Shown here: piece by piece, positions 9,782 through 46,804 of the stretch
Layout of the letters: the number at the start of each line of letters is the position of its first letter
How positions within the stretch are numbered: position 1 is the stretch's first letter
DNA from: Thermoproteota archaeon
GTDB taxonomy: Archaea; Thermoproteota; Methanomethylicia; Methanomethylicales; Methanomethylicaceae
NCBI GenBank assembly: GCA_020832905.1
Contig: JAJHRG010000002.1
Location: forward strand, 124,001 to 188,000
DNA: 64,000 nt
Reading direction: 5' to 3'
Program-made: the position numbers and the translations under genes
Notes under the pieces: model-generated
What the model was told of the DNA's origin: nothing
Seen by the model: only the letters and a program-made list of their open reading frames with translations
Databases searched by the model: none

Positions 9782-10126
9782 ATGAGTCTCTTTAAAGAGG
9801 CAATAAAGCAAATTCCTAAAAAACCTGTAACAATAAAATATCCATTTGAGCCTGGCATTATTCCTCCTGGATTAAGAGGATTACCTATTTGGGATATGAG
9901 TAAATGTATATTATGTGTATTATGTCAAAATGCATGTCCAGTATCTGCAATAAAAATGATTCCAAAAGGACCTGATGCTGGAATTATTTATGATCTTAGT
10001 AGATGTATTTTTTGTGCTGAATGTGCTGATGCATGTCCAAAGAAGGCAATTACTATTACAAATAAGTTTGAATTAGCAACAACATCAAAATCAGAACTTA
10101 TTTTTCACTATAAAAAATCTCAATAA
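9782..10126 (+). CDS. NuoI-like polyferredoxin subunit
   Basis: 114 aa; two CxxCxxCxxxCP 4Fe-4S motifs. Confidence 0.9.
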   Translation: MSLFKEAIKQIPKKPVTIKYPFEPGIIPPGLRGLPIWDMSKCILCVLCQNACPVSAIKMIPKGPDAGIIYDLSRCIFCAECADACPKKAITITNKFELATTSKSELIFHYKKSQ

Positions 10127-12018
10127 TTTTCATTTTGAAATTCTTCTTCAATAGTTTTAATCTCTACATTACCTTTTTCATAATCTTCTAGTATATTATC
10201 AACAATTTTAGCAATATCAGAAAGACTAGAAATAATATTATTCTTATCCTTATATGAGGAAACAATAAATTTAATTGGTAAAGAATATTTTTGACTTTCT
10301 TTATAGCATTGTATAACATTACTAGGATTTATGTATACAATGAATCTTTTTGAAAAATCCCAAATTTTAGGATCAATTTTCCAATTTTTTAAATACTTTA
10401 CAGGATAAACAATAACATCTGGAAAATTTGATTTCATTATTTTATTTACAATACAATAAAAACCCTTCATTCTTTCTCTTCTTACGTATTTTCCTAATAT
10501 TTGTATATTAATTTCTCTTCCTAATGGTATATCTTTAAATTTTGATATTGCTATTTCTGTAAGTAAATATAATCCATTATTCATATAAATAAATCCATCA
10601 TATAGTAATTCCTTTATTGCTTCTTTTAACTCATACGAATTAAAACCTTTTAATTGAGATTCTATCATGGAAAAAGGAGTAGGTTCTTGAAGTCTTTTGT
10701 AATATAAAAATGAAAGAATAGAAAAACATACTGGAGAAATATCAGGAGCTGGAAGATTTTCTTTTTCATAATTTTTTACTTCTCTTCCATAAATACTTAA
10801 TGAATGTTTTATAACATCTTCAGGATTAGAAATCTTCATATTTGATATATCAATACACATACCTGTATTTACAATTCTTGTTCCTTCTTTTCTTATTAAA
10901 AAAGCCATTTGATGCTTCATTAATGTCATTAAAGTTTCTTTTGTAAAATAACGACATACTGATTTAAAATATTGTTCAAGAGCTTCTGCAGTTTCTGCAC
11001 CTACAGAAAATACTATTAAAGTATCACATAATTGAGGTATTGCATTAGTTATAGTTTTATCTTTTCCTCCATCTCTATCAAATTGTCCTAAATATTGAGC
11101 AGATAATGTTAAATATACTTTATATTTTCTTAATGCTTGAAGTATATCTTTTAATGATTCTGTAACAAATCTATATGCTTCATCTACATATACATAAAAT
11201 GGTCTTCTTTCATTTTCAGGAATATCTTCTCTTGCCATACCTTCTTGATAAATCTTATTAAGTAAAAGAGCTCCAAGAAAATTTGCAACTTCAGTTGTTA
11301 ATCTTCCTTCAGATAAATTAACTAATATGATTTTTCCACTTTCCATACATTCTCTTAAATCTATAGAAGATTTTGGACTATCAAACATAGAAGCTACTAA
11401 TTTTTCTTGAATAAGTCTATATACTTTATTAGTTACAACAGTAGGAGCTTCATCTTTTAATAATGGAAATTCACTTATCCAATACTTTATAACATTTTCA
11501 TCTCTTACATTTGCAAGAAGTCTTCTTCTTTTATCAGGATCAATAAGAATATCATATAAATAACTTAATCTTGGATCTGGTTGCTCCATTACTGCATATA
11601 CTGCATTTAATAATATTCTTTCTAATCTTGGACCCCAAAATTCACCATATAATTTTTTCATTGAATCAACAAAACCCATAGCAATTAGTGCTTTTTTTGA
11701 TGGATCATTACATTCAAGTAAAGAAATTTTGACTACTCTTCCATATTTAATACTTGTTGTTGGATCAATGTATACAACTTTATCCCATTTTTCCTTTGGA
11801 ATTATGGATAATACTTTTTTTACTAAATCTCCATGAGGATCTATTACACATACACCTTCATCATTTTTTATATGTTGATATATTTGAAAGAGCATAAATG
11901 TTGATTTACCAGAACCTGGCATACCAAAAATTGCCATATGTACTCTATCTTCTTTATTTAGTAATATTAATTGATCATTTTCGCTTTTACATAGTATAAA
12001 GCTATCTTTATTATTCAT
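10120..12018 (-). CDS. TraG/VirD4-like (TraD/HerA-type) DNA-transfer ATPase with C-terminal winged-helix-like region
   Basis: 632 aa; Walker A FGMPGSGKST, GVCVIDPHGDL, Walker B YVYVDEAYRFV, LSAQYLGQF. Confidence 0.85.
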   Translation of the reverse strand: MNNKDSFILCKSENDQLILLNKEDRVHMAIFGMPGSGKSTFMLFQIYQHIKNDEGVCVIDPHGDLVKKVLSIIPKEKWDKVVYIDPTTSIKYGRVVKISLLECNDPSKKALIAMGFVDSMKKLYGEFWGPRLERILLNAVYAVMEQPDPRLSYLYDILIDPDKRRRLLANVRDENVIKYWISEFPLLKDEAPTVVTNKVYRLIQEKLVASMFDSPKSSIDLRECMESGKIILVNLSEGRLTTEVANFLGALLLNKIYQEGMAREDIPENERRPFYVYVDEAYRFVTESLKDILQALRKYKVYLTLSAQYLGQFDRDGGKDKTITNAIPQLCDTLIVFSVGAETAEALEQYFKSVCRYFTKETLMTLMKHQMAFLIRKEGTRIVNTGMCIDISNMKISNPEDVIKHSLSIYGREVKNYEKENLPAPDISPVCFSILSFLYYKRLQEPTPFSMIESQLKGFNSYELKEAIKELLYDGFIYMNNGLYLLTEIAISKFKDIPLGREINIQILGKYVRRERMKGFYCIVNKIMKSNFPDVIVYPVKYLKNWKIDPKIWDFSKRFIVYINPSNVIQCYKESQKYSLPIKFIVSSYKDKNNIISSLSDIAKIVDNILEDYEKGNVEIKTIEEEFQNENY

Positions 12019-13012
12019 TTCTTATTCTCACCATTTTCTGAATTGATAATGGTCTTTTCAATGGAATTTCTGGACTTGGAAAGGAAAATATAGATGCTAA
12101 TTCATAATCACTTAATCCAATAGTTTTATATTCCTTTGTAATAATAAGAAATATAAAAGATAATAATGATGCTATAGAACAAGTTATTATTTCATTAGGA
12201 ATAGTTTTAAGAAGAAGTAACTCAAGTATAGAATTAATATTTGATTTTAATAATATTGGTAAAATAAGAATAGAAAGTGGAATATATTTAATGAGAATAG
12301 ATTTATATTTTTGAATATAATGATTTGAAATAGAATACTTAAATTTCCATTTCTTACATTCTTTAATAGAATATTCAATTAAATAATTCATAGATGTTTT
12401 TGAGAAGGATGCAAGAGTTGCTCTTACTGCTTCTTTTGTATTACCATATATGAATATATTACATTTAAAAAGTCTAGAAAGAGATTTTTCATAAATCATT
12501 TCTATTTTCTTTGAATTTATATTTTTCAATTTTGATAAATAAGATGAAATTTCTCTTGAAATTTTTTCACTTGGAGATGCAAATATTTCAACAGCAGTAC
12601 CAAGGGTTAATATAGATGTCATTAGAGAATCTGATGGTATTAATGGATACATATTTGTTTGATTTAATGATTCAGAAAAGCTTTTAGAAATAGGATATGA
12701 AAAATGATTTGCTAAAGTTGCTTCAAGTCTATATCGATATTTTAAATTTGGAGGTTTAGTTTTATGAACTGAAGCTTTTAGTAAAGTACTTGCATATTCT
12801 GCAAAAGGTAGAGCAAAATTATCATCAATTTCTATTAATAATCTAATACAGTATTCCTCATCTCTTTCTATAAATAAACGGAATTTTGTTGGAATAATAG
12901 AAAATAATTGTGAAAAATATTTTGGAGAAAAGTATAATGGATCATTTAAAATTGTTGTATTTGGTAGAATTTCAAGCCACATATTATCACCTCTTATTAT
13001 AAATAAAAGCAA
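12011..13012 (-). CDS. membrane protein of the DNA-transfer locus (likely start ATG 12982)
   Basis: 333 aa, C-terminal TM segments; translationally coupled to the TraG-like gene. Confidence 0.55.
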   Translation of the reverse strand: MLLFIIRGDNMWLEILPNTTILNDPLYFSPKYFSQLFSIIPTKFRLFIERDEEYCIRLLIEIDDNFALPFAEYASTLLKASVHKTKPPNLKYRYRLEATLANHFSYPISKSFSESLNQTNMYPLIPSDSLMTSILTLGTAVEIFASPSEKISREISSYLSKLKNINSKKIEMIYEKSLSRLFKCNIFIYGNTKEAVRATLASFSKTSMNYLIEYSIKECKKWKFKYSISNHYIQKYKSILIKYIPLSILILPILLKSNINSILELLLLKTIPNEIITCSIASLLSFIFLIITKEYKTIGLSDYELASIFSFPSPEIPLKRPLSIQKMVRIRNE

Positions 13013-13616
13013 TTAAATGACCAATAGACATAAGAGTTAAAGTAGAAACAAGAGAAAATTTACTTATGATTATAGAAATAGCATATGTAACTATTATTAT
13101 ACCAGGTATTTCCCATAGTAAAACTATCATAATTGATGCTTTAATAAAACTATACTTTCTTAATAAGAAATTCATTACTGGATTTTTTTCTTCTTCAGTT
13201 TTATAAAACTCCTTTGTGGAATATAGATCCATGAATAAGAAAATACAATAAATAAAAATCATAGGTATAATAAGCCAGTCCATTTTGCTTATTGATAAAG
13301 CAAATAAAAGAGAAAATAAGTTTAGTAGTTTAATTTTATAGTTAGCATTCTTTCCATACTGATAACCTCCATATATTAAACCAAAGAGAATAGCTACTGC
13401 TCCTATAGTTTGAACCATTAGTATTATTTTTTCTATTATTGCTCCAAGTCCTGCTGGTAAGTAGGGATTTGATGAAAGATTTGTAATATTTTGATTTGTA
13501 ATAAAGCTAACTATAGAAGGAGATAAGGATAGTAATATTCCAAATATAAAACATCCTTTTATTATTTCTATACCTCTTTCTTTGGATGCTTCATCTCCCT
13601 TCATTTTTACTCCCAT
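12987..13616 (-). CDS. polytopic membrane protein with VirB2/TrbC-like hydrophobic hairpin
   Basis: 209 aa; GAIIEKIILMVQTIGAVAILFGLIYGGYQYGKNANYKIKLLNLFSLLFAL. Confidence 0.45.
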   Translation of the reverse strand: MGVKMKGDEASKERGIEIIKGCFIFGILLSLSPSIVSFITNQNITNLSSNPYLPAGLGAIIEKIILMVQTIGAVAILFGLIYGGYQYGKNANYKIKLLNLFSLLFALSISKMDWLIIPMIFIYCIFLFMDLYSTKEFYKTEEEKNPVMNFLLRKYSFIKASIMIVLLWEIPGIIIVTYAISIIISKFSLVSTLTLMSIGHLIAFIYNKR

Positions 13617-13721
13617 AATATTTTTGATATAGAGAATTTTATAAACCAGGAAAGCATGATAAGGAAAGATTTATTTACTTTTTTCATTTCCTCTTATTAG
13701 AAATAAAAAGTTGGGAATATA

Positions 13722-14135
13722 ATGAATAAAAAAATTGAAGAGTTAAGTCCTGGATCTAGAGGAATAAACCTATTAGTAAAAGTACTAGAAGTAAATCCAA
13801 GTAAGGAAGTAAAAACAAAAGATGGAAAGACTCATAATGTTGCAGAAGTACTTGTTGGTGATGAAACTGGTTGTGTAATATTAAGTCTTTGGGATGAAAA
13901 TATAGAAAAAGTAAAAGTAGGTCAGACAATTTCAATTAAAAATGGTTATGTCTCATTATTCAAAGGATCAATTAGATTAAATATTGGTCGTTATGGAAAA
14001 TTAGAAGTATCAACAGAAGATTTACCATATATAAATAAGGAAAATAATATTTCTAGTAGACCATATGGTCAAAGAATACCAAGATTTAAACCATTATTTG
14101 AAAATAATTTCAGTAAAAAGAGAAGAAGACATTAA
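13722..14135 (+). CDS. OB-fold single-stranded DNA binding protein (crenarchaeal SSB-like)
   Basis: 137 aa; VLEVNPSKEVKTKDGKTHNVAEVLVGDETGCVILSLWDENI, basic tail KKRRRH. Confidence 0.85.
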   Translation: MNKKIEELSPGSRGINLLVKVLEVNPSKEVKTKDGKTHNVAEVLVGDETGCVILSLWDENIEKVKVGQTISIKNGYVSLFKGSIRLNIGRYGKLEVSTEDLPYINKENNISSRPYGQRIPRFKPLFENNFSKKRRRH

Positions 14136-14162
14136 TTTCTTTCTTCTTTTTTATTGTTATTA

Positions 14163-16013
14163 TTAGAAAGTTTCAGATGGCTTAGAAGTAAAAAGTTGAT
14201 ATTCTTCATCTGAAGTTGCTAAGAATTGAACTCTTATATGTGTATTATCAGTAATAAGTAATCCCTCTCCTTGAGGAAGTTCTACTACAATATCAGCTTC
14301 TTGATCACTTAATCCAAATACTTCTTTTATAAGAGACTTATTAGAATCATCTTGTCTCATTAATATTTTTGTTGAAGAATTCTCTAAAATTGTTCTTCCA
14401 GCTTTAATTTCTGAATGTGTACCTAACATATCAGCTGGTCTTTGTGTATTTATAATTAATATACAATTTCTTTTTCTTCCAAGTCTTGCTACTTTTTCTA
14501 AAAATGTAGCAGCTGATGGTATTTCCATGTATAACCAAGCTTCATCAATAAGAACTAATCTTGGTGTTGCTTTTGTTATTCCAAAAATATTAGGTTTTGA
14601 AATTATTTGCCATATTTTTCCAAAAATAAGCAAAGAAAGAATTTGCTTAATTAGTTTAGATTCTATTTTCCTCATGTTAAATGACATTCTTGAAGTAAAG
14701 ATAATAGGTTCTCCTCTGAATATAAAAGATTCAGGTCCTCTTTTTATTGATGAAAACTTCTCATAAAGATCTTGAGGAAGCTTATTAAAGAGTTCACTTA
14801 AATTTTGAGATGACATTACAATATCACGAATACGAGAAATATCTTTTCTATCATTAAGACCTACAATATCACAAATTATATCTGCTGCTTCACCTTTTTC
14901 AAATAGTATAAGAGGATCAAGTCCAAGTTCCATATTTTCATCTACATGAATTACTTCTCCTCCTAACCACTCAACAAGATAAGTATATTCACCTTCAGGA
15001 TCTATTATATAAAATGGAATATCAGGATAATTTTCAATTAATCTTTTCAATAATATTTTTGATAAAAAAGATTTTCCTGAGCCTGATGTTCCAATTATAC
15101 TAATGTTACTATTCTGTCTTAATAAAGGATTATAAATTACTGGAGCACCAGAGATAACATTAATTCCTAAGAATACTCCTCCAGATTCAATAACTTCACC
15201 AGATACAAAAGGATAGAAAGCACTTAGTGTACTTGTATTCATATAAATAAACTTTCCCTTTCCTTCATAGATTAATCCTTGTATTATTTTAGGAGAATCT
15301 ACTTTAATAAGACGAGAATTAAGTCTATTTATAAGTATTTTAGATTTTTCTTTAAGTTCTTTTTGTGAAGAAGCAATAATTATAAAGTTTATAGAAACTT
15401 TAAATAATTTAGAAATACCCATTATCATTTCATTAATTGTTTTTTCAGCTATTTCTTTTTTTAATAATATTTCTTGATTTGGAGATTTTCTCTTACTTAT
15501 AAAAGATGAAATAATTGCATTTAGTGTTCTCTTATAATTTTCTATTCTTTTTATTGCTTCTTCAGAATCAATAGGAATTATCATAACTTTAATTATATCA
15601 GCAATATCATATGTTTCTGATAAGAAGCCAATAGGAAGTAAAGCAGGAAGCTCATATACAGTAAAACACTTTGCTAATCTTCCATCTTCTAATACTAAAG
15701 AATTCCATTTCTCTATTCTTATATTTGGAATTGGAATTTTTTCTAATTTTTGAAAAATAAAATGATTTGCTTCAAGAATATCATCTATTGGATTATTACT
15801 CTCAATAAAAAAACTAGGATATTCAATTGTTACTATTTTATTATTAATCATAATACCATGCTTTTTCTTCATCATAATTATTTTTATTGGAGAGGATAAG
15901 GAATTAAGTAATAAAATAAAATAATTAATTAATTCATCTTGTTGTCTTTCTGAAAGCATTATGAAATTAGTAGGAATAATTTCATAAAGTACCATTATTA
16001 TTACCTCTAACAT
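14163..16013 (-). CDS. VirB4/CedB-like conjugation ATPase
   Basis: 616 aa; IIGTSGSGKSFLSKILLKRL, PFYIIDPEGEYTYLVEWLGGEV, LVLIDEAWLYM, INTQRPADML. Confidence 0.88.
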   Translation of the reverse strand: MLEVIIMVLYEIIPTNFIMLSERQQDELINYFILLLNSLSSPIKIIMMKKKHGIMINNKIVTIEYPSFFIESNNPIDDILEANHFIFQKLEKIPIPNIRIEKWNSLVLEDGRLAKCFTVYELPALLPIGFLSETYDIADIIKVMIIPIDSEEAIKRIENYKRTLNAIISSFISKRKSPNQEILLKKEIAEKTINEMIMGISKLFKVSINFIIIASSQKELKEKSKILINRLNSRLIKVDSPKIIQGLIYEGKGKFIYMNTSTLSAFYPFVSGEVIESGGVFLGINVISGAPVIYNPLLRQNSNISIIGTSGSGKSFLSKILLKRLIENYPDIPFYIIDPEGEYTYLVEWLGGEVIHVDENMELGLDPLILFEKGEAADIICDIVGLNDRKDISRIRDIVMSSQNLSELFNKLPQDLYEKFSSIKRGPESFIFRGEPIIFTSRMSFNMRKIESKLIKQILSLLIFGKIWQIISKPNIFGITKATPRLVLIDEAWLYMEIPSAATFLEKVARLGRKRNCILIINTQRPADMLGTHSEIKAGRTILENSSTKILMRQDDSNKSLIKEVFGLSDQEADIVVELPQGEGLLITDNTHIRVQFLATSDEEYQLFTSKPSETF

Positions 16014-16635
16014 TAATTAAAATAGAATCTATTGGTGTATCAAATCCCTTAACTGCAATAAGCATATGATATGATCCAATACCACTTGGATAAAACTTTA
16101 TAGAATATACTCCTTTCTCATTAGATTTAGATATAAATATCTTATTATCAATTAATGCATAAAATTTTGTATTTAAAAGTGGAACTTTTGTTTTTGGATT
16201 TTTTAAGATCTCACTTATAGTTACAGATCCATCATTATTCATTACTACTGATATTGATTTATTAGGTGGAATAAATTTACTTAATACCTTTTTTATCTCT
16301 CTTGGTACATCTTCAATAAGTAACATTTGTGAATTATTATATTGCTTTTTTCTTTGTCTTTTTAATTTTAAAAGAATTATTACATATTGCTCTAGTGGAA
16401 TTGTTTTTACTTTTTTCATAGAAATTAATAAAAAGAATAATAAAGGAATTATACTAAGTCCTATTTTAATTTCCATATTAAATGGAATTATCTTATATGA
16501 GAAATAGCTTATAATTATACCAAAAACAATTAAGAGAAATTGTCTTAATGTCATTATGCCTATGGGTGTATCTATAAATGGTTGATTAAAAATAGAAATT
16601 GATTCAAACCAAAGAGTTTGAACTACTTTTACCAT
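15982..16635 (-). CDS. PrgI/VirB3-like membrane protein with C-terminal extracellular-type domain
   Basis: 217 aa; N-terminal TM pair, immediately upstream of and overlapping the VirB4-like gene. Confidence 0.5.
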   Translation of the reverse strand: MVKVVQTLWFESISIFNQPFIDTPIGIMTLRQFLLIVFGIIISYFSYKIIPFNMEIKIGLSIIPLLFFLLISMKKVKTIPLEQYVIILLKLKRQRKKQYNNSQMLLIEDVPREIKKVLSKFIPPNKSISVVMNNDGSVTISEILKNPKTKVPLLNTKFYALIDNKIFISKSNEKGVYSIKFYPSGIGSYHMLIAVKGFDTPIDSILINVRGNNNGTL

Positions 16636-16722
16636 TTTATCACCTTAGAATTTTCTTCTTAAAATGAAGAAAATTCATTCTCTAATACTATATAGAATCC
16701 TGAATTTTATAAAGAAGGAAAA

Positions 16723-18387
16723 TTAGTTATTTATTTCTCTTCTTTTTTGAATAAATTCTACTATTTTATCTGCATTAATTTTTCTATTCTTTAGTGCCAT
16801 AGTCTTTGTTATTGGACTAATTCCATTTAATTCATTAACTAGTGTATTCTGAATTTCTACTTTATCTTCTTTTTTCATATTAATTGTATATTTTTTCCAT
16901 GATTCATATGCTCTTCCTATTCTAGAAAGTAAAATATTTTGTGCTTCAGGATTATCTTTTGTTATTTCTATGATTTGACGTATTCTTTCCTGTATTCTTC
17001 TTCCTACTTCTTCTCTTTCTTTAGGTGTAAGCTTTGTTCTTGTCATTAATTCATATTCTTTTCCAATTATTTCAGGTGGTTTTATTAATAGATTTGTTTT
17101 TACATTTTTAGCAAGAATTTCTACTGCTCTAGAATCTCCTTCAAGTTCATGTGGAATAGTAGCTGCATATAAAATAAGACTATCTGCATATTCTGCTTCA
17201 CTTGTTTTATATTTATTAATAATATTCATTACTTTTCCTGATGATACTATAGGTATATTATGAGAACTAGGTAACACATGTTTAATTGATTCACTTAATG
17301 CTGTAGTAGCACCTATAGTAGAAGCACTTACTTCTTTTAAAATAGCACCTTTAAGTGATAATTCACCAGTTTTAATAGCTGTAGAAAGAGTAGGTAAAAC
17401 TCTTAATCCAGCTATAGTAGAACCTGTAATAACTCCAATACCACTCATTATAGCACCTGTAGTTGCTCCAGTTATTGTACTAGATATAGAAATTACTAAG
17501 GAGCCTAAATGTGGAATTAAAATAGTCATAATTAAAGAGCTAATAAGAAGAATTCCTAATGATATTAATGTCTTCATTAATTCAGATATAGAAGCATTAG
17601 TAATAACACTATATCCAAAAGTAAAGAAGAAAGCAACAATTACTGATGCTAATATTCCACCTATTAATACTTGTATAAGTAAATCTGCAATTCTATCAAC
17701 ATAAGGTATTAATCTCATAACAATTAAAATAGGAATAAGAGCATAAATTATACCTATAAGGAAAATTCTAAAAATTCCCATTATTATTATGCTTATATAT
17801 GTAATTAAAACATAAATAAATAAAAATATATTCATTATTCCTGCTGCTAATATTGATGATGGATCACTTTCTAAAGTCCATTTTACTGATGATGCATAAC
17901 TAAGAATTTCTTCTATGGCATTAGAAGGAATTATTCCATTAGGTGATGGAAATGTTATATAGTTTATTATAGCAGCTATTGCATCATATATTATTGGAAA
18001 TAAATAAATTAATATAATTGATGTAATTGTACCTGTAAGAATTCTAAAAGCAGTTCCTTCACTTATAAGCTTAAAGTTTTGTAGTAAAAAAGAAAAAGCT
18101 GCAATAATTATAAGAAAAGCAAGAAGATAAAAAGCAACAATTCTTGATCCAGCATAAAGATATGTCATAGATTTACCTATCATAAAGTTATAACTACTAT
18201 TAGTAAGAGGAGAAAATCCATAAATACTTTCATCCCAAAATGGACGAGGAATTTCAATTAAAAGTAAATAAATAGATTGTGGTAAATTTAATGCATTTAT
18301 TATTCCTTCAACTAAAGATGGAAAAGCTAAATTTATTATACTTATTATTATAGTAATGATTGGAATAATTGCTAAAAGAGATAACAT
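16723..18387 (-). CDS. VirB6/TrbL/CedA-like polytopic membrane channel protein
   Basis: 554 aa; N-terminal ~330 aa multi-TM, C-terminal soluble charged region; neighbours VirB4-like gene. Confidence 0.65.
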   Translation of the reverse strand: MLSLLAIIPIITIIISIINLAFPSLVEGIINALNLPQSIYLLLIEIPRPFWDESIYGFSPLTNSSYNFMIGKSMTYLYAGSRIVAFYLLAFLIIIAAFSFLLQNFKLISEGTAFRILTGTITSIILIYLFPIIYDAIAAIINYITFPSPNGIIPSNAIEEILSYASSVKWTLESDPSSILAAGIMNIFLFIYVLITYISIIIMGIFRIFLIGIIYALIPILIVMRLIPYVDRIADLLIQVLIGGILASVIVAFFFTFGYSVITNASISELMKTLISLGILLISSLIMTILIPHLGSLVISISSTITGATTGAIMSGIGVITGSTIAGLRVLPTLSTAIKTGELSLKGAILKEVSASTIGATTALSESIKHVLPSSHNIPIVSSGKVMNIINKYKTSEAEYADSLILYAATIPHELEGDSRAVEILAKNVKTNLLIKPPEIIGKEYELMTRTKLTPKEREEVGRRIQERIRQIIEITKDNPEAQNILLSRIGRAYESWKKYTINMKKEDKVEIQNTLVNELNGISPITKTMALKNRKINADKIVEFIQKRREINN

Positions 18388-18405
18388 TTTCTCATTATTA
18401 TTATA

Positions 18406-20148
18406 TTATTTCAAAAATTTAAAGGAGAATTTTCTTAATAAATTATAAGTAATGATTATTACCATTAGTAATAATACTATAATGAAAATTTCATTATTAA
18501 TAGATTCATTAGAATAAAAAGAAATCTCTCCAATTTTTATAATAAGTGAATTTCCCCAAACATCTATAATTTCTGCAAAAATTGTAGTATTTTTATAAAT
18601 ATTTTGAGGTTTTTTAATCCATAGATGATAATTATTTTCTTTAGAATATTTTTGTGTCCAATTTTTATCATAAAAAATAATTTTTGAGTTATTATCCATA
18701 TAAAATAATGATAATTTTTTAATTGCTTGATTTGTAGTTATGTTTATTTCAAACCAAGATGAATAATCTTTAAAATCATTTATTTGAGCTTTTAAATTCA
18801 TATCAATATTAAATTCTTCTTTATTAAAATCAATATAAACAGGTACCCAGCTATTTGTATTAATGATAGTAAAGTTATAAGTACATGATAAAGTTCTTGG
18901 TATAAGAATAAATATTTGAGAGCTATTTGTTTTAATGATTATATCTGTAATATTTATATAATCTTTATTCCATTCTTGAATAAACCATTCATCATTTTCT
19001 GGTGGATTAAAAAGCTCATTAAAGAACTTATCATCATTATAAATTTTAGTTATTAAAATATGAGTTTCATTAAATGAAGAAAAAATATTAGTAGGCATTC
19101 TAATCTTTAAGTAAGGAAGATTAATAGAAGCATTTCTAGTTATAAAGGGAAATTTTGACCAGTAAAGTATTATATTTACATCAAGTTCTTGAATATTAAG
19201 TTTTTCAATATTATAATCAAGTGAAAATAAGAATTTAGCATATCTATTCTTTGATGTAAATACTTTTTCCTCAAAATTTTTAGCTATTGGACCATATTCT
19301 GAACAATTTATATATGCTATATAAATTGATGATTTATTTAAAATAATATTAGTAATAGATTTAATCCAAGATGTTGCATTATCAATAATATCATCTAATG
19401 TAATAGATCTAATATCATAAAACCCCTTTGTAGAAAGTAATTGAAAATCTTTAGATGAATTTATAAAAAGAATAGATTTTCCAATTGTTTTTACTAAATA
19501 TTTATCAATAATAGCTCTTTGTTTTAAATTATGATTAGGACCATTACCATCATATCTTATTAATAATGCTAAATCCATTCTATATGTTGTAATTGCATCT
19601 CCTTTTAAAACTGGATATAATATAAGAGTAAAATTAGGATTATATTCAACAACTTCTAATTGAAATGATTTAGTAATTTTTAATGAATAAGAATCCCAAT
19701 AAATTTTCCATCTCCAATCATAACCTATAATACTTTCATTTTCATATAATGGATATGTTTCATTTAGCCAATATTGATAATGATAAGTAATATAAAAAAT
19801 AATGTTAACTGTATAAATACCAGATGGAATATTTGCAATTGTACAAATTATTTCATTATTTGAAAAATTTACATTACTTATACATTCACTTAAAACTTCA
19901 ATTTTTTCTAATGTATAATAATAATGACATAAGTTTCCATTACTATCATAAAATGTACCATTAGATGGAATAGAATACATTATAATAAAAGAATCTCCTG
20001 GATAAAATGTACCATCTTCATTATTAGTAATAGGAATAATTGAAATTTTTATATCATCTTTATTACAATTAACAAATTGAATTAAATTAAAAATTATTAT
20101 TAAGAAGGAAATAATGAAAATAATTTTATATAATTTCATAAAGATCAT
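18406..20148 (-). CDS. secreted, C-terminally membrane-anchored surface protein
   Basis: 580 aa; N-terminal signal, many N-x-S/T sequons, C-terminal TM plus basic tail. Confidence 0.6.
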   Translation of the reverse strand: MIFMKLYKIIFIISFLIIIFNLIQFVNCNKDDIKISIIPITNNEDGTFYPGDSFIIMYSIPSNGTFYDSNGNLCHYYYTLEKIEVLSECISNVNFSNNEIICTIANIPSGIYTVNIIFYITYHYQYWLNETYPLYENESIIGYDWRWKIYWDSYSLKITKSFQLEVVEYNPNFTLILYPVLKGDAITTYRMDLALLIRYDGNGPNHNLKQRAIIDKYLVKTIGKSILFINSSKDFQLLSTKGFYDIRSITLDDIIDNATSWIKSITNIILNKSSIYIAYINCSEYGPIAKNFEEKVFTSKNRYAKFLFSLDYNIEKLNIQELDVNIILYWSKFPFITRNASINLPYLKIRMPTNIFSSFNETHILITKIYNDDKFFNELFNPPENDEWFIQEWNKDYINITDIIIKTNSSQIFILIPRTLSCTYNFTIINTNSWVPVYIDFNKEEFNIDMNLKAQINDFKDYSSWFEINITTNQAIKKLSLFYMDNNSKIIFYDKNWTQKYSKENNYHLWIKKPQNIYKNTTIFAEIIDVWGNSLIIKIGEISFYSNESINNEIFIIVLLLMVIIITYNLLRKFSFKFLK

Positions 20149-23859: not shown

Positions 23860-26700
23860 CTAATTTTGTAAATCATTAAGAAAACCCACTAAACATATAC
23901 CTGAATAAGGATCACAAGCAGTAATAGTAACTTTTATTGGTGATATTAATCTCCAAGTATAATTATCAATTCTTTCAATATCTACTAAAATACCATTAAT
24001 AGCAATCTTAGGCTTTACTTCAGGAAGAAGAATATTATTTTCATATGTTTTAAATGTAAAAGTAATAGAATATAAAGTAGAAAAGTGCATTGGAAGAATT
24101 CTTGAAGAAATAATTTTAAGTTCAACTCTATACTTATAATTTACTGTACTTACTTCATAGTAAATTGTATCTATTATAGGATTATACTCTATTATTGTTT
24201 TAATATAGTAAATTTTACCTAATTCAAAAGTATTCTTATAAAATTCTGAATATGGATAAATGAAAATATTACTTGTAAGAGGCCATGTTGTTATATTAAT
24301 TGGTATAATTACTTCACCTAAAGAATTTGCCCAAAATGTATAATTATCTATTACTACTCTCCATCCAGGATTAAGACCAATTATTTTTACACCAGAATAA
24401 TCATCAGGAACTTTTAAGTAATTTATACGAATATAATCTACTCTTCCCCATTGTGGACTAGAATATAAAGCATAACCACTTGGTCCACAACCATAAGTAT
24501 GAAAAACAATTACTATCTTATCAATTTTAGAAACATTATAAGGAAATAGAGTTATAGTAACATTAAGAAGAGGATTTTCTGATTTATTACTTTGTACTAT
24601 AAGATACCAATTATTTTTTTGAATATAATAAACTAGTATTTCGCCCCATGATTCATAAACATAACCAGCTGCAGAATAATAATGAAAATATCCATCAGTT
24701 AATAGTGATATTGTAAAATTCTTACCTATAGAATTAACATCATATATTAAGTAATACCATGCTTCCATTCTTGGTGCTTCATCTCCATAAGGACCAGAAT
24801 AATAACTTAGAGAATTCTCATAAAATATAACATAGCCATTACTTGAAGAAAATGATGGTGTAGTTCCACCAGTTACAAGATTATAAGAAAAACTCCATCC
24901 ATCTATTGAGTTACATTCACTTCCTTTAAATGCTTGTTGTAATTGTATATTAGTAACAGATTTTACAAGAATACCATTAGAATATGTTAACATATAATTC
25001 CAATCTATAGCTTCTGAATACTTTACTAAAGGACGTAAATAATCTCTACTTATTACAGTTATATAACCTTCAAAAGGTTGAGGAATTTCAATTGGTGATA
25101 TAATAATATCAGAACCATTACTAATTATACTCTTTTTTAGTAAATTATTTTGATAAATATTTACAATATCATTTTCTGGAATTCCTTTTATTGTTAATCC
25201 TAAATTACCATAATATGTAATACTTACATTATCAATGTATAAATAAAATGAATAATAATAAGAACCTGAAGAATACCAATTAAATTTTATACTAGTAATA
25301 ATTTGAGATTCATTAAAGCTGATATTATATGAAAGAAGATACCATTGTTGATCTGATATATTAAAATTATCATCTATATTAATATAACTTCCATTTAGTA
25401 ATTTAATAGAAATTCCTTTAAAATAACATCCAAAAGTATTTCCAAAATATTTGTAAAATCTAGTATTGAAGCTAATATTAATTGAAGTACAATAAATAGA
25501 AACATTTCTTTCTATCCATGGATACCATGATGAAAAACCAGTATTTACTGCTCCACAATATTCATAAATTAATGATCCTGAACAACCAAATGAGGCATAT
25601 TGATATGAATTTAATTGTCCTTTTAATCCATTCCAATTATCTATTGAATCACATGAATCAAAAATTGAAATAGTAATAGGTTTATTTTGTAGAGATGAAA
25701 AAATACCAGAATTATAAATAATAGTAGTATTTGCATAGAATTTATCCTTATAAGTATATGTATAATTAATTAAGCCTACTAACATTCCATCTAACTTATT
25801 TGAATAAGAAATTTCACATCCATGTATATTAGAAATTATATTCTTGATAATATTTCCATTATTATCTAGTAAATACCAATCTCCAGCAGATAATCCTGAA
25901 ATTTTAAAATTAGAAGATAATGGTTTTAAGATAATTTTATCAATATTAACCCAATACTCATAATCAGAATATGGTTGAATATTATTATATTCCCATATGT
26001 AAAATCTAATTTCAATTTTTGAGGGTTCAGTATATAGCATACCAGAGCCTATAATAGTTGTTCCATTATTATATGAAAAATATGCACCAGTTGAATTTTG
26101 CCATAATTTACATTGTATAGAATATGTATTAAGAGTTTTAATTGTTTCATTATTGTAAAAAGATACTTTAATTTCTTTAATATAATAGTCTTGAGTTATT
26201 GTGAAAGAGAATATTTTGGTATTAGAAGAATCATATAGTGATATAGTAATATAGAGAGGTGGTGCTCCTGCTATACCACTAGAAACTGCTCTTCCTATAC
26301 TTATAGGAATATATAATTCAAATTCTTTTCCTACAGTATTAAATTCTTTCCACATTTTAAAATCATAAATAGCTCCTCCTATACTATGAAGCCAATTATG
26401 CCATTGTAAATATCCATTTGAAGTTATACCACACCATAAATATCCCCACCAAGATGGACATGTTCCAGAATAAGACCAATTATTATTAATTGCCCATTGA
26501 TCTGCAGAAGTATAAGGTGGATTTGAAAATTCTTCTACAATAATATCATAATCAATATAATTTAATTCCTTAATGATATTCTTACTTTTACTTAAGGATA
26601 TAATGGCATTTTCTCCACTATAATAATTAAAATAACTTGAACTTGATACTAATAGAATAATAATGGGTAAAATTTTAAGGAATATATAAATAAACATCAC
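23860..26700 (-). CDS. large secreted adhesin-like protein
   Basis: 946 aa; N-terminal hydrophobic segment, Tyr/Asn/Ser-rich beta-type sequence with many sequons. Confidence 0.65.
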   Translation of the reverse strand: MMFIYIFLKILPIIILLVSSSSYFNYYSGENAIISLSKSKNIIKELNYIDYDIIVEEFSNPPYTSADQWAINNNWSYSGTCPSWWGYLWCGITSNGYLQWHNWLHSIGGAIYDFKMWKEFNTVGKEFELYIPISIGRAVSSGIAGAPPLYITISLYDSSNTKIFSFTITQDYYIKEIKVSFYNNETIKTLNTYSIQCKLWQNSTGAYFSYNNGTTIIGSGMLYTEPSKIEIRFYIWEYNNIQPYSDYEYWVNIDKIILKPLSSNFKISGLSAGDWYLLDNNGNIIKNIISNIHGCEISYSNKLDGMLVGLINYTYTYKDKFYANTTIIYNSGIFSSLQNKPITISIFDSCDSIDNWNGLKGQLNSYQYASFGCSGSLIYEYCGAVNTGFSSWYPWIERNVSIYCTSINISFNTRFYKYFGNTFGCYFKGISIKLLNGSYINIDDNFNISDQQWYLLSYNISFNESQIITSIKFNWYSSGSYYYSFYLYIDNVSITYYGNLGLTIKGIPENDIVNIYQNNLLKKSIISNGSDIIISPIEIPQPFEGYITVISRDYLRPLVKYSEAIDWNYMLTYSNGILVKSVTNIQLQQAFKGSECNSIDGWSFSYNLVTGGTTPSFSSSNGYVIFYENSLSYYSGPYGDEAPRMEAWYYLIYDVNSIGKNFTISLLTDGYFHYYSAAGYVYESWGEILVYYIQKNNWYLIVQSNKSENPLLNVTITLFPYNVSKIDKIVIVFHTYGCGPSGYALYSSPQWGRVDYIRINYLKVPDDYSGVKIIGLNPGWRVVIDNYTFWANSLGEVIIPINITTWPLTSNIFIYPYSEFYKNTFELGKIYYIKTIIEYNPIIDTIYYEVSTVNYKYRVELKIISSRILPMHFSTLYSITFTFKTYENNILLPEVKPKIAINGILVDIERIDNYTWRLISPIKVTITACDPYSGICLVGFLNDLQN

Positions 26701-27460
26701 CTCTAGATATATCTGAATTTATCCATGCTATTGGATACCAAAGAACTAATCTTCCTGTAAATGGCATTCCTGATGGATTTAAAACTAAAAATGAAGAAGA
26801 TAGATCTTTTACTTTAATTGATTTTAATTCATTATCTTGAAATAATTGAACCAATGATAATTGAGGTAAACCATATATAAATATTTGTGAAAATCCTGAA
26901 GGTGGAGACCATGAATTAATAGTTATAGTAAAATCTTGATTAATTGTATAATTGTAATATGGTGAAATTGTTAGATTATATTCATAAATTTTCTCATAAA
27001 TTATTAACCATCCATTTTTTACATCACTTATATTTACATAATTTCCATTTGAATAACCTATTATTCTGAACTTATTATCTGTTATTACAGCTAGATAATC
27101 TCTAGGAAGATTATTTATAATAATATAATTTCCATCAGTTTTATTTTCTAATTTTATAATAGAATTTGATGGAAAATTATATGGAATTGAAAAACCTTTT
27201 CCTGTTCCATTTATTATATTAACAAAATTATTGATATTAGATAGAGATAAAATATAATTAACATAATCATCTGGTGATTTACTTGATGATGCAGTAAATA
27301 GTAAAGATTTAGTTATTTGATTTTTAATTGCAAAAGAATCATTTTCTCTTATAGATATTATAATTGGTAATGTACGAATAATAAGAATAGAGGAAATTAA
27401 AGTAATTACTATAATTAAAGAAGTTATAGTAAATGTAAAGCCTTTTTTAGAAGTTAACAT
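26675..27460 (-). CDS. pilin-like/minor pseudopilin with C-terminal domain
   Basis: MLTSKKGFTFTITSLIIVITLISSILIIR. Confidence 0.65.
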   Translation of the reverse strand: MLTSKKGFTFTITSLIIVITLISSILIIRTLPIIISIRENDSFAIKNQITKSLLFTASSSKSPDDYVNYILSLSNINNFVNIINGTGKGFSIPYNFPSNSIIKLENKTDGNYIIINNLPRDYLAVITDNKFRIIGYSNGNYVNISDVKNGWLIIYEKIYEYNLTISPYYNYTINQDFTITINSWSPPSGFSQIFIYGLPQLSLVQLFQDNELKSIKVKDLSSSFLVLNPSGMPFTGRLVLWYPIAWINSDISRGDVYLYIP

Positions 27461-27872
27461 AAACTTTCACCGAATTATCTATTTCTTTAGAAATTGTTAC
27501 TGAATGTAATCCAGCAGGTATAATAAAGTCATTAATCTTAATATTATAGGTAATAATAATTAAATCATTTTCTATTACTATGTTTGAAATTATATTCATA
27601 GGATCTGGAAAATCAAAAATATAAGATGAAAAATAAATTGTACTATTATTACAAATAATAGATCTTGGCTCATTTATTAATATAGTAATGGAAGTTCCAG
27701 GATTTGATGCATATATTTCTTCTATAATCATATGAATAATATTTGATGATGAAGTTTTGTTAATAGATGATATAAACATTATTGACTTAATTGAAATTAA
27801 TGTAGTTATTAATATAAGAAATGATGTAAGAATTATAACATTCATTGGTAAAGAAAATCCTTTTCTTCTCAT
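27447..27872 (-). CDS. minor pilin-like protein
   Basis: MRRKGFSLPMNVIILTSFLILITTLISIK. Confidence 0.65.
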   Translation of the reverse strand: MRRKGFSLPMNVIILTSFLILITTLISIKSIMFISSINKTSSSNIIHMIIEEIYASNPGTSITILINEPRSIICNNSTIYFSSYIFDFPDPMNIISNIVIENDLIIITYNIKINDFIIPAGLHSVTISKEIDNSVKVYVNF

Positions 27873-27876
27873 TATA

Positions 27877-28278
27877 TCACCTAGAAATGATTAGTATTAC
27901 AATACAAGGATTAGGAATTCCTTGAAATCCACTTAGAAAATATGGATGAGAAGAAATTGTATTCTTTTCATTAAATAAAAGTGAAGAATATGACCAAATT
28001 AAATTCCAATCTAAGGAATACACTTTTATGCAATAGCCAGTATTAGGTAAAAGATTATCAAGAAAATAAGATATTCTATTTATATCTTTTGTATAAATAC
28101 AAGAAGCTAAAACTCTATTAGAATCTAACCAGATTAAAATATTATCTAGGCTTTGATAATCTCTATCTAATGTTATTGAGGAATAAGGAATAAATGTTAC
28201 AATAATTGATATGCCAATAATTAAAATTAAAAAAGCAAATACTAAGTCATAAATTATTGTTATTCCTTTTTTATTCAT
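27877..28278 (-). CDS. minor pilin-like protein
   Basis: MNKKGITIIYDLVFAFLILIIGISIIVTF. Confidence 0.65.
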   Translation of the reverse strand: MNKKGITIIYDLVFAFLILIIGISIIVTFIPYSSITLDRDYQSLDNILIWLDSNRVLASCIYTKDINRISYFLDNLLPNTGYCIKVYSLDWNLIWSYSSLLFNEKNTISSHPYFLSGFQGIPNPCIVILIISR

Positions 28279-29065: not shown

Positions 29066-29101
29066 ATTCTCAAATTAATGATATTTAGGAGAAAATTTAA
29101 A

Positions 29102-29761: not shown

Positions 29762-29765
29762 AATA

Positions 29766-32700
29766 TCACCTTATAAATATTAATTTTCTTCCTTCTTTTA
29801 TTGGATTATATAGAATATTTACTGAATGTCCTGGAATAATTTGAAGCCAAATATTTTCTACATTAGGAGTTTTAATAAGTATTCCCTTAATTTGAGCTAA
29901 ATCAATTGGTATCTTTATTTGTTCTCTTATTGGTAATAGTAAAAATGATGAGTTAATAGAGAAATTCATATAAATTTTATCATGACATCTATAAAGTAGT
30001 ATAGATTTTGAAGGACCAAAAATCTCTCCATTACTTGTATTATTAGAATATACATAAACATATGCTCCTTCAATAGGACTTAAATTATTTCTATCACCCC
30101 AATCAAATGGTTCTACTACAATAAAATTAGAATTAATAAAATAAAACATAGGAGCAATTACTGTATATGTAATATTATTTTTAATTGCATGAGTAATAGG
30201 ATATAATGAAGAATTTTCATAAGCATAAATACTTATGGAAATATTTGTTCTTAGTATTGAATTATTAAGCCAAGAATAAGGAATCCATAAATAAGAAAAA
30301 CCATTTTCATCACAAGGAGAAGAAAATCTTTCTTTTAGAAGATTATCATTCCATATTTCATATACACCATCAAGAGTAGCTACATAAAATTCCTTTCTTC
30401 CTTTTACTAAACTTCCATCACTTAAATATCTAAATTTAAATGTAGCATTTATTCCTGTTAAATTATAATCAAATTCAGTAGTTGCCATTATATTATCTAT
30501 TTTCCAAGTACTATTGTAGAAATAGACTTTATCATTTACTCTAATTTCAGCATATGCAAAATATTTAGAACCAATAGAAGCATTTCTATTTGTAGAGTAA
30601 AAAACATCATCTAATGATCCAAAAAGAATTGAGATATATCCTGAGCTATCTGTTGTTACTGTTTTTGTAAATTTATAAATAGTTGACTTAAATGTACATG
30701 AATTTTTATCCCACCATACTACTCCTAAAGGATCTAACCATGCTGTAACATTTACTTGAGTTGGAGATGAAATTCCTGGAATTCTTACAGTTACATTTAC
30801 TCCTATATTCTCATATAGAATTACTCTTTTTAGCATTCTTCCATCTTTAAGAGATGCAGGACCAACATTTTCTATAATATCTGTATCAAAAATTGCAATT
30901 ACTTCATGATCACTATCCATATAAATGGTTATTTTATTATAATCTACTACTTTTTTCCCATCTATAATCCAATTGGAGAAGTAATAATTTGGATCATTTG
31001 TATATGCAATTATAGATTGATAGGAATATCTAGGAACTTCATATATTCCTGGTGCTGGAATTGTAGTACCATTTCCTTCTACTTTTATAGTAAGTCTAGA
31101 TGTTGGAGGATTAGCTGAAAAGTAAACTATAATATTATAAGGCTTTGTAATATTTTCTATAGTAACAATATTATCATAAAAGATTTTTTCATCTTGAGAA
31201 TTAGGATTAATTACTATTTTATCAAAATAATATCCTGCATATGGATATGCTTTTATTTTTATATTATATGAATAATCTACATAATAAATTCCAAATCCAT
31301 TACTATAGTTATAAATAAACCAACTAGGAGAATTTGATTCTACAATTACATAACCCCAATTTTTATTTGATGTAATATTTACAGGAAAATCAATTAATTT
31401 TATATTTAATCTTAACATATGAGTTTGTGAAGGAATAAGAATTGCTTCATAATATGATGGATAAATAATTGATGGTATTGAAAATTCACTATTTCCTATT
31501 ATATAATAAGCAGAATAAATTTTAACTTTTGATTCTCCTCCCCATTGAGAAAGAAGTTTTCCTTGTAAATTTATTGGATCAAAATAAATAGGTACATTTT
31601 CTACATTTGAAATCATTAACTGTAATGTATAAGGAGAACTAGGAACTATTATAGAATTATTAAAGTAAATTAATCCATATTCACTATAATCACCTTGTAT
31701 CCAACTACCATACCATGGATATCTAATATCAAAAATAATTGTAGTTAATTGATATTGTGGTTTCTTTTTAAATATTGCTTTTAATGTATAATTTGAATTC
31801 ATAGTAATTGAGATTATATCATTAGAAGAATAATCATTACCATTTAATTGCCATTTATCAAATAAATAATCACTATTAGGATATGCAGAAATAGTTACAA
31901 TTGTTCCAGCTGGATATGCATATACACCTGGTGGAGGATTTGTTATTCCTCCTTCTGATGATTCTATATTAAGATAATAAATTTGTTGAGTGATATTAAT
32001 ATAAACATCTACATAATGAGATAAATTTCCTGATTTTCCTATTACTCTACATATATAAACACCAATAGAATCTCCAGCTAGAAATATTAGTAAAGAAGAA
32101 CCATTAGTTATAATAGATTGTGGTATAATAGAAATACATGAATTGGTAGGTACTTTTCCAATCCATTCAATTGATAATTGAATAGGTATAATTTGATTTG
32201 AATTTACATATATAATAGAAGTTCCTAATTCTCCTGGTCTTAGAAAAATATCATTAGATTTATAAATAATAAAATCAATAGATGAATTTACATAAATATT
32301 AACATATGCATATCCTTTTCTTCCTATAGAATCACTTACAGTTACTATAGCATTATATTTACCAGGTTGAGAATATACATGTACAGGATTTTGTTCATTA
32401 GATACTCCCATATCTCCAAAATTCCATAAAAAACTATATGGTGGATTTCCTCCTGAAACTATACAGTAAAATTGAACTGAAAGAGGAGCTTCTCCATATG
32501 TTACATTTGAATATGCAGTTACTGTAAGCTCTTGAGTAAAAATAGCTTTTAAAGTATGATTTGTATTCATTACTATACTAATAGGATTATTTGAACTTAA
32601 TATAATTCCATCTAATTCCCATTTATCTAATACATATCCTGATGAAGGATATGCATAAACATTAACTTTTTCTCCTATTGAATATTCATGTAATCCTGGA

Positions 32701-33608
32701 GGAGGATATGTAGTTCCACCTAATGTTGTTTCTATATTAAGATAAATACTACTAACATTAACTAATATCCATTTTATATCACTTAATCCCATGGAATCGA
32801 TTACTTTACATGTTACATTATGTAAGCCAGAATTTTGAAAAGCAAAATAAGTATATGATGTTAAAATATCACCAATATCTCCATAAACTACTTCAGTATA
32901 ATTATATTGTTCATCAAAATACCAATAAATAGTATATGGTGGAACACCATCTTTGATAATAGCTATAAACTGTACATTTTGTCCTTTCCATGCATTTATA
33001 GGAAAAGCATTAATATCTAATTGAGGCCAATAAAAATTCAATTCTACATTTTTAATTGAAAATTCTATATCTATACTAGCATAATCATGAATTACTTCAC
33101 TATTAGGATACCAATAATCTGCAATAACATAAAAATAAGCAATATCAATAGAGAATTCTTTACTTCCAGAAAGTTTAATATTATTAACATGATAACTATA
33201 ATTTACAAAACCCATATCAGATGGAGGTTTATGTAATGATATTACATTTATATTAATGTTAGGCTTAATTTTAACATAACTAAATGGATTAGAAAAAGTT
33301 CCATTATAGGAAATAACTGAAGTAATATTAACATTAGGTCTATAAGCTTGTGAAACACCTTTAGGTACTTCTACATATGCTTGACAATGAATTATTCCAG
33401 TTTCAGAATTCCATTCAACCGAATTATATCTAATAGGATGATTTTCATAAAATCCTTCTTGTTGACCTGGATCATTTCCAGCAGGAGAATAATAATATTG
33501 AAAAGAAAATTGTGAAGAAGGAATAACTTGTTGAAAGCTATAAGCACTTACTTGATTTATACAAAAAATAGGAATAATAAGAAATAATAAGTAATAATAT
33601 CTTTTCAT
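29766..33608 (-). CDS. giant secreted protein with three InlB-B-like repeats and a PKD domain
   Basis: 1280 aa; signal peptide; YLNIETTLGGTTYPPPG...KAIF repeated three times; PLSVQFYCIVSGGNPPYSFLWNFGD PKD motif. Confidence 0.75.
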   Translation of the reverse strand: MKRYYYLLFLIIPIFCINQVSAYSFQQVIPSSQFSFQYYYSPAGNDPGQQEGFYENHPIRYNSVEWNSETGIIHCQAYVEVPKGVSQAYRPNVNITSVISYNGTFSNPFSYVKIKPNININVISLHKPPSDMGFVNYSYHVNNIKLSGSKEFSIDIAYFYVIADYWYPNSEVIHDYASIDIEFSIKNVELNFYWPQLDINAFPINAWKGQNVQFIAIIKDGVPPYTIYWYFDEQYNYTEVVYGDIGDILTSYTYFAFQNSGLHNVTCKVIDSMGLSDIKWILVNVSSIYLNIETTLGGTTYPPPGLHEYSIGEKVNVYAYPSSGYVLDKWELDGIILSSNNPISIVMNTNHTLKAIFTQELTVTAYSNVTYGEAPLSVQFYCIVSGGNPPYSFLWNFGDMGVSNEQNPVHVYSQPGKYNAIVTVSDSIGRKGYAYVNIYVNSSIDFIIYKSNDIFLRPGELGTSIIYVNSNQIIPIQLSIEWIGKVPTNSCISIIPQSIITNGSSLLIFLAGDSIGVYICRVIGKSGNLSHYVDVYINITQQIYYLNIESSEGGITNPPPGVYAYPAGTIVTISAYPNSDYLFDKWQLNGNDYSSNDIISITMNSNYTLKAIFKKKPQYQLTTIIFDIRYPWYGSWIQGDYSEYGLIYFNNSIIVPSSPYTLQLMISNVENVPIYFDPINLQGKLLSQWGGESKVKIYSAYYIIGNSEFSIPSIIYPSYYEAILIPSQTHMLRLNIKLIDFPVNITSNKNWGYVIVESNSPSWFIYNYSNGFGIYYVDYSYNIKIKAYPYAGYYFDKIVINPNSQDEKIFYDNIVTIENITKPYNIIVYFSANPPTSRLTIKVEGNGTTIPAPGIYEVPRYSYQSIIAYTNDPNYYFSNWIIDGKKVVDYNKITIYMDSDHEVIAIFDTDIIENVGPASLKDGRMLKRVILYENIGVNVTVRIPGISSPTQVNVTAWLDPLGVVWWDKNSCTFKSTIYKFTKTVTTDSSGYISILFGSLDDVFYSTNRNASIGSKYFAYAEIRVNDKVYFYNSTWKIDNIMATTEFDYNLTGINATFKFRYLSDGSLVKGRKEFYVATLDGVYEIWNDNLLKERFSSPCDENGFSYLWIPYSWLNNSILRTNISISIYAYENSSLYPITHAIKNNITYTVIAPMFYFINSNFIVVEPFDWGDRNNLSPIEGAYVYVYSNNTSNGEIFGPSKSILLYRCHDKIYMNFSINSSFLLLPIREQIKIPIDLAQIKGILIKTPNVENIWLQIIPGHSVNILYNPIKEGRKLIFIR

Positions 33609-34366
33609 TATAAATTCACCATTATTTTATGATAAATAGGAATAAAGAAAATACTTCCTTGAAGATTAATTGTAATATTACCATGTATAGGTTCATTTAA
33701 TCTTATTACTCCTCCTTCTGCTATGTAAAAAGTATTATTAATTATAGCAGATATAATTCTCATATTTGCTATAGAATATAATCCTGAAGTCTTAATGGAT
33801 AATATAGTGTGATTATAAGTATAAATATGAGTAAGATCATGATAAGTAAATAATCCTACAACAGTTAAATCTTCTGCTGTTTTTCCTAAAAATTTAAGAG
33901 CTAAATCAAAATCAGATAATGTAAAAATTACAAAAGCATATCCACCATTATCTATTTGATATTTTATTAAAGGATAAGGTCTAGTAGTACCACATTCTAT
34001 TATAGGTATATTTTTCCATGGTTCTATATTTATTTCTCTTGTACGTATATATTCAACTTCAGAAACTTTTGAGATTAAAAGAGCTAATATTTTTCCTGAG
34101 CTATCTGCTACCCATAATCCTATAGCTAATGTATCTTTACCTGATGGATTTGGAGCTCGTAATACTTTACTTACATTAGCATATAATACTGATAAGCTAA
34201 TATTCTTAGGAATTGATATAAATAAAGAATTAGCAGGAGGAAATATTCCAAGATCTAATGCTTCATAATTTTTAATTTCTATACTAATTGATCCATATGT
34301 GAAGTTTAATACTATTAGTAATAATAAGATTGTAATGGTAGATATTATTATCTTCTTCATTCTCAA
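33608..34366 (-). CDS. secreted protein of unknown function
   Basis: 252 aa; N-terminal signal; overlaps next gene by 1 nt. Confidence 0.55.
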   Translation of the reverse strand: MRMKKIIISTITILLLLIVLNFTYGSISIEIKNYEALDLGIFPPANSLFISIPKNISLSVLYANVSKVLRAPNPSGKDTLAIGLWVADSSGKILALLISKVSEVEYIRTREINIEPWKNIPIIECGTTRPYPLIKYQIDNGGYAFVIFTLSDFDLALKFLGKTAEDLTVVGLFTYHDLTHIYTYNHTILSIKTSGLYSIANMRIISAIINNTFYIAEGGVIRLNEPIHGNITINLQGSIFFIPIYHKIMVNL

Positions 34367-46800: not shown

Positions 46801-46804
46801 GATT

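Follow-up and report, generated by a model that had tools for sequence, protein, structure and literature searches.

Domesticated conjugation machines have precedents in archaea: the Ced system of Sulfolobales and other Crenarchaeota imports DNA and needs Ups pili for cell contact (PMC11868833), and the Ted system is found in Thermoproteales, and its sequence divergence is high (PMC9905601). Among mobile elements, the transfer regions of thaumarchaeal integrative and conjugative elements (ICEs) hold VirB4, VirD4, VirB6, VirB3, TadC, FlaI, prepilin peptidase, and pilins (Krupovic et al. 2019, PMC6563490). The locus considered here occupies 10120-34366 of the window, the whole stretch of 64,000 nucleotides that was analyzed (G000:C16:124001-188000; in the codes used below, f denotes a family and g a genus). 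It joins, on the chromosome of a methane-metabolizing archaeon whose assembly encodes the alpha subunit of methyl-coenzyme M reductase (MCR), the core of a type IV secretion system (T4SS; VirB3, VirB4, VirB6, a VirB2-type pilin domain, and a putatively split VirD4) to the engine of a type IV pilus (ArlI-type ATPase, UpsF-type platform, pilin, minor pilins, and large surface proteins). An earlier note on this DNA had proposed the combination of DNA-transfer ATPases with a pilus engine.

The description that fits the locus best is that of a domesticated relative, in Methanomethylicota, of the thaumarchaeal ICE transfer module; in our judgment it is probably a resident, chromosomally fixed machine for DNA exchange. 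This reading is supported by the conservation of the block, by purifying selection, by its location at one site in two genera, and by the absence of integrase and attachment (att) repeats. What is new is the setting, a seemingly settled chromosomal locus, and not the combination of T4SS and type IV pilus itself, which mobile elements of related archaea were known to carry.

Comparison with described systems

With the thaumarchaeal ICEs the locus shares the joint presence of VirB4, VirD4, VirB6, VirB3, a TadC-type platform, a FlaI-type ATPase, and pilins, as well as the lack of a recognized relaxase; it differs in that an integrase, att repeats, ParB, and a prepilin peptidase within the locus are all absent, in occupying one site in two genera, in the separate branch of its pilus engine, in the fusion of a pilin domain to a domain with multiple transmembrane (TM) segments, and in its large PKD surface protein. 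Ced and Ups of Sulfolobales (PMC11868833) are likewise chromosomal and combine VirB6- and VirB4-related proteins with a type IV pilus; the present locus, however, has a full-length VirB4 in place of CedB/CedD, adds a VirD4-type partner, and holds both halves together, whereas ups is a separate operon. The CedD model gives the protein at 10120 only 22 bits (cut-off 600), the platform reaches 132 bits against the UpsF equivalog (cut-off 400), and the FlaI score of the ATPase also lies far below the equivalog cut-off. Because of the full-length VirB4 and the low UpsF and FlaI scores, the locus is, judged from sequence, neither Ced nor Ups proper; by analogy, the Ced/Ups-like division of labor envisaged in the earlier note would still be its likeliest use.

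Ted (PMC9905601) is likewise a T4SS core on the chromosome that includes VirB4- and VirB6-like proteins; the locus differs in having no recognized ParA/MinD or HerA and in the fusion of its VirB2-type protein. The conjugative plasmids of Sulfolobus (pNOB8 and its kin) carry full-length homologs of the window VirB4 (98% cover, about 30% identity) with a VirB3-like gene beside them; pNOB8, in contrast, has an integrase and ParA/ParB, and shows no ArlI/UpsF homolog in the 37-kb stretch scanned. The ATPase at 14163, first described as VirB4/CedB-like, is thus a full-length VirB4 of the conjugative kind and not CedB or CedD. A scan of viral contigs for VirB4 relatives found none. The nearest named public relative is Candidatus Methanomethylicota (Verstraetearchaeota) WYZ-LMO11 (contig QNVI01000040.1; VirB4 90% identical).

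The closest relatives of the pilin, ATPase, and platform are found in a stand-alone operon of the sister genera g2 and g5, with no T4SS genes around. In its three instances (L219, L221, and L222, in genomes G002, G005, and G012, respectively) this compact operon lies beside histidine-biosynthesis-like genes and a gene for a secreted β-propeller protein (PF09826 in L219).

Conservation and chromosomal site

The run consists of 19 minus-strand open reading frames (ORFs), most separated by gaps of -32 to +103 bp, and a single plus-strand gene for a single-stranded DNA-binding protein (SSB; 13722-14135), in agreement with the overlapping or abutting arrangement noted earlier. The whole region is colinear in G001, a genome of the same genus; in G007 an unbroken series leads from the PKD protein through the minor pilins, the 946-aa protein, the pilin, ArlI, the platform, the 580-aa protein, VirB6, and VirB3 to VirB4, with proteins 30-65% identical to those of the window, and G011 keeps the same order across two contigs. 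This gene order is therefore far from chance. Between the window genome and G001, the ratio of nonsynonymous to synonymous divergence (dN/dS) is 0.15-0.59 for every gene of the locus; none is therefore decaying, and all are under purifying selection.

In the window genome, the locus is flanked on the left by an Ech-type hydrogenase and on the right by a metal ATP-binding cassette (ABC) transporter (45874-48757). In g7, matching flanks are attached to the two halves of the locus, and in G014 (g6) and G002 (g2) the flanks lie only about 7 and 5 kb apart, respectively, without any T4SS or type IV pilus genes; in G002 a relative of the 252-aa protein (40%) and an unrelated ORF are all that the interval holds. 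The comparison shows presence and absence of the locus at one chromosomal site, with presence in two genera, g1 and g7; either a single gain in the ancestor of these two or loss in the others may lie behind it.

These observations bear on whether the locus is itself an ICE of the thaumarchaeal kind, or the stranded remains of one, with transfer genes that serve or once served the element. Its gene content equals that of an ICE transfer region (PMC6563490), the VirB4 proteins sister to its own include those of f10 genomes, each of which carries two or three copies on short contigs, and its silent divergence exceeds that of the flanks, all of which would fit such an element. However, the window assembly contains no tyrosine integrase (PF00589), no direct repeats of at least 16 bp occur between the flanks, the tRNA-Val at 36278 is not duplicated, and no ParB or replication gene is seen among the locus ORFs; the missing integrase, in line with the earlier note, and the missing att repeats, together with the shared site in two genera and the purifying selection throughout, make an ICE unlikely.

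The silent divergence from G001 has a median dS of 0.32 over 10120-36000 and of 0.137 in the flanking genes (2.3-fold higher in the locus; Mann-Whitney P 4e-6), an excess that could stem from weaker expression or from exchange with divergent alleles. Beside the hydrogenase operon, the gene at 723-2213 is only 58% identical to the G001 copy (dS 1.3) and 80-81% identical to copies in g6, a pattern that suggests gene replacement. Elsewhere, g7 has a protein with a chemotaxis-receptor signaling domain after VirB4 (L036:14614-15210 and L037:13106-14104; MCPsignal 6.4e-39 and 1.2e-37), and a contig of 54% GC in G014 (C45; L069:10757-13652) carries a C-terminal fragment of VirB6, its reading frame interrupted by stops, as well as a VirB3-like gene, beside archaellum-like genes. 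A TFIIB homolog close to the transfer genes counts among the traits of archaeal ICEs. The zinc-ribbon protein near the locus was considered as TFIIB on the basis of its pattern, but without a Pfam or PDB match this identity was not confirmed. A scan for sigma-70-type promoters was set aside as not meaningful for archaea.

Parts of the locus

The coordinates of all features are collected in Table 1; the family matches listed there uphold the TraG/VirD4-like and GspE/PilT-like ATPases and the TadC/GspF-like platform named in the earlier note.

Table 1. Genes of the locus and the adjacent zinc-ribbon gene, in window coordinates
Feature	Position	Strand	Evidence and remarks
VirD4/TraG-type coupling ATPase, soluble half	10120..12018	-	TrwB_AAD_bind 1.3e-7, above cut-off; no TM segment predicted; dN/dS 0.15
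333-aa membrane partner of coupling ATPase	12011..13012	-	TM segments 236-294; homologs in other T4SS loci
209-aa fusion: VirB2/T4SS-pilin-type hairpin and C-terminal multi-TM domain	12987..13616	-	T4SS_pilin family of separate homologs
Single-stranded DNA-binding protein (archaeal Ssb)	13722..14135	+	Ssb-like_OB 1.2e-21; stays beside locus in G001, G007, G011
VirB4 ATPase	14163..16013	-	P-loop_TraG 9.5e-15; VirB4_plasma 5.6e-45
VirB3/PrgI-like membrane protein	15982..16635	-	PrgI 2.6e-4, below cut-off
VirB6/CedA-like membrane channel protein	16723..18387	-	Fold match to R388 VirB6
580-aa extracellular protein, N-terminal signal, C-terminal TM anchor	18406..20148	-	TM segments 1-30, 547-576
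Type IV pilus platform protein, UpsF/TadC/ArlJ-like	20145..21776	-	T2SSF 2.2e-6; UpsF 3.3e-38
Type IV pilus assembly ATPase, ArlI/GspE-like	21769..23328	-	T2SSE 3.4e-27; FlaI 3.7e-78; PDB FlaI 4ii7 4.3e-59
Probable major type IV pilin	23358..23756	-	NKGDISSPIIV motif and one TM segment
946-aa secreted surface protein	23860..26700	-	No Pfam hit; G007 ortholog 47%
Minor-pilin-like, KKGFT motif	26675..27460	-	
Minor-pilin-like, RKGFS motif	27447..27872	-	
Minor-pilin-like, KKGIT motif	27877..28278	-	
Minor-pilin-like, N-terminal TM segment	28275..28673	-	
Minor-pilin-like, N-terminal TM segment	28673..29065	-	
219-aa protein, N-terminal TM segment	29102..29761	-	dN/dS 0.59
1280-aa secreted protein, PKD and InlB-type repeats, candidate adhesin	29766..33608	-	Flg_new_2 6.1e-24; PKD 5.7e-12
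252-aa secreted protein, first gene of run	33608..34366	-	40% homolog in G002
Zinc-ribbon protein, CxxC..CxxC pattern	35059..36000	-	Stays near locus in G001, G007, G011; link to locus tentative

The genes for VirD4, the 333-aa protein, and the 209-aa protein form a second unit beside the Ech-type hydrogenase operon, both in the genome of the window and in G001, G007, and G011. The 333-aa protein, whose family finds no match in Pfam, is read here as a putative N-terminal half of a split VirD4 coupling protein. In the 209-aa protein two halves that are separate genes elsewhere are fused, in the same four genomes; separate homologs of the first half (84-149 aa) match Pfam T4SS_pilin (4.6e-8; 9/33 members of the joint alignment). 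This VirB2-type domain, which the earlier note did not name, makes the 209-aa protein the sole T4SS-pilin match in the window genome, where the pilin was met only in its fused copy and not as a free subunit. A fold search with its structural model (pLDDT 87) gave no match.

The VirB6/CedA-like channel, first called by eye, gains support from its AlphaFold model (pLDDT 73; quality is poor over 307-394): the top two fold matches in Foldseek are both R388 TrwI/VirB6, with probabilities of 0.99 and 0.98, although at an E-value of only 0.1. Pfam and other family models do not match the window protein; among 25 homologs, one matches TrbL (0.0023) and two match NF046089, a mobilome membrane-protein family (5.6e-4), in each case weakly. 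PDB profile searches with the VirB6 and 209-aa families returned nothing useful. The VirB3 assignment is strengthened by its homologs, which stand beside VirB4 in many genomes. Homologs of the 580-aa protein, whose family has no Pfam match, adjoin VirB6 or VirB4 in other loci. No relaxase occurs among the Pfam hits of the locus proteins, although no search aimed at relaxases was made; archaeal conjugative elements without a recognizable relaxase are known (PMC6563490).

The pilus engine was called complete in the earlier note, and its ATPase, platform, and pilins are indeed present there; the one prepilin peptidase that was found in the genome, however, is encoded at G000:C16:96156, 28 kb outside the window. 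The pilins have the motif and hydrophobic stretch of the class III signal type, as judged by eye and hydropathy. The major pilin is kept in G001, G007, and G011 (in two copies in the last), and a relative adjoins ArlI in g2 and g5. Two more ArlI-type ATPases are encoded in the window genome, in other pilus or archaellum-like loci.

Frequency and history of the pairing

VirB4 profiles match 51 of the 398 genomes of the phylum. Outside the window's family, an ArlI or platform homolog lies within about 10 kb of VirB4 in 20 of 39 loci and in 12 of 21 genera, where the density of such ATPases leads to a chance expectation of about 2% per locus (binomial P ~1e-23 by locus, and 5e-12 by genus with chance doubled); these figures are approximate, as the table was compiled by hand, some contigs are short, and L138, L144, and L146, with long-branch ATPases, were counted as positive. 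The two functions are therefore not specially fused here, as had been supposed: the pairing is widespread and has been published for thaumarchaeal ICEs (PMC6563490), and a fusion unique to this genome is rejected.

Two further arrangements were seen in the course of this comparison. Four loci of family f44 (L077, L079, L080, and L082) have near-identical VirB4, 580-aa-like, VirB6, VirB3, a VirB2 pair, 333-aa-like, and VirD4 genes and no pilus engine, possibly a second domesticated system. In L139, a 109-aa protein with a signal peptide and two TM segments (11577-11906, minus strand) is encoded beside VirB4, VirB3, platform, and ArlI; its build is TedC-like, but it has no PDB match and was dropped as a TedC candidate.

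In their trees, the two halves place the window lineage differently. Its VirB4 is sister to that of G389 and family f10 (100/97; 98/96 in a second tree), whereas its ArlI ATPase is sister to the ATPase of the g2/g5 operon (100/100). Approximately unbiased (AU) tests, for groups picked after the trees had been seen, reject a grouping of the window ATPase (with g2/g5) with the ATPases from G389 and f10 (p 0.004), reject the same grouping for the platform (p 5.6e-5), and mildly reject the ATPase topology for VirB4 (p 0.02). By these trees the halves have partly different histories, since the engine branches with T4SS-free sister pili and VirB4 with other conjugation modules. That the pilus engine had been recruited independently, by convergence, was hinted at by the unrooted ArlI tree, which speaks against a single clade of all hybrid ATPases with the T4SS-free sisters excluded (AU p 3.5e-5); this is not upheld in a tree rooted with CpaF and freed of long branches, in which all T4SS-linked ATPases and those of g2/g5 form one clade (97/90). 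The engine is thus of a broad T4SS-linked lineage, yet it has not shared its entire path with the present VirB4.

The locus might also hold two unrelated machines that happen to be neighbors, one a pilus for adhesion and the other a channel for DNA transfer, as the lone pilin-ArlI-platform trio of g2 and g5 and the conflict between the VirB4 and ArlI/UpsF trees could be taken to indicate. With overlapping genes in a single run, an order kept in two genera, the recurrence of the pairing, and a rooted tree that unites the ATPase with other T4SS-linked ATPases, we consider this very improbable.

Possible mechanism and meaning

We infer that DNA is the substrate, that the two halves act jointly, and that the coupling protein is split. 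A pilus tipped by the PKD and 946-aa proteins, and extended through ArlI and the platform, would bind a suitable cell and pull it near; the membrane pore would consist of VirB6, VirB3, and the VirB2-domain protein and be powered by VirB4; the split VirD4 would bring DNA in the donor, and SSB would protect single strands on the cytoplasmic side. A VirD4-type partner is not listed among the Ced components, and by this comparison its presence leans toward leaving room for export.

Several points weigh against a joint DNA-exchange machine. In genera g2 and g5 the pilin-ArlI-platform trio has no T4SS gene around it, so that the pilus can function by itself. The VirD4 half makes up its own transcription unit, which lies 8 kb off in G011. 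A CedA1/TedC-like mating pilus may be lacking, as the sole T4SS pilin found occurs in fusion with a multi-TM domain. Lastly, the 1.16-Mb assembly is of the metagenome-assembled type, 92.5% complete and in 21 contigs.

T4SSs elsewhere can carry protein, and large secreted proteins are numerous in the locus (among them one with PKD/InlB repeats and those of 946 and 580 aa); its T4SS parts might thus export surface proteins or effectors, with the pilus attaching cells to surfaces or partners. The kinship of its VirB4 to those of DNA-transfer systems, the retention of SSB beside the locus, and the fact that no candidate effector was recognized render such a secretion or adhesion apparatus decidedly unlikely.

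The fusion of the pilin also allows a more specific, and more doubtful, form of the DNA-exchange reading, in which, in this methanogen family, the type IV pilus has replaced the mating pilus, and the T4SS pilin has been reduced to a domain in a membrane subunit. The fused gene could imply that cells make no mating pilus and are bridged by the type IV pilus alone; DNA would be exchanged through a VirB4/VirB6 pore held to the partner by the resident pilus, with engine and channel drawn from different sources.

If DNA exchange is indeed the function of the locus, it would be a further case of domestication, in MCR-encoding Methanomethylicota, physically joined to its own pilus. This would suggest that domestication recurs, and that pilus and channel act as one unit. 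Owing to the wide pairing of the two, it is testable in culturable relatives whether archaeal conjugation generally needs a type IV pilus.

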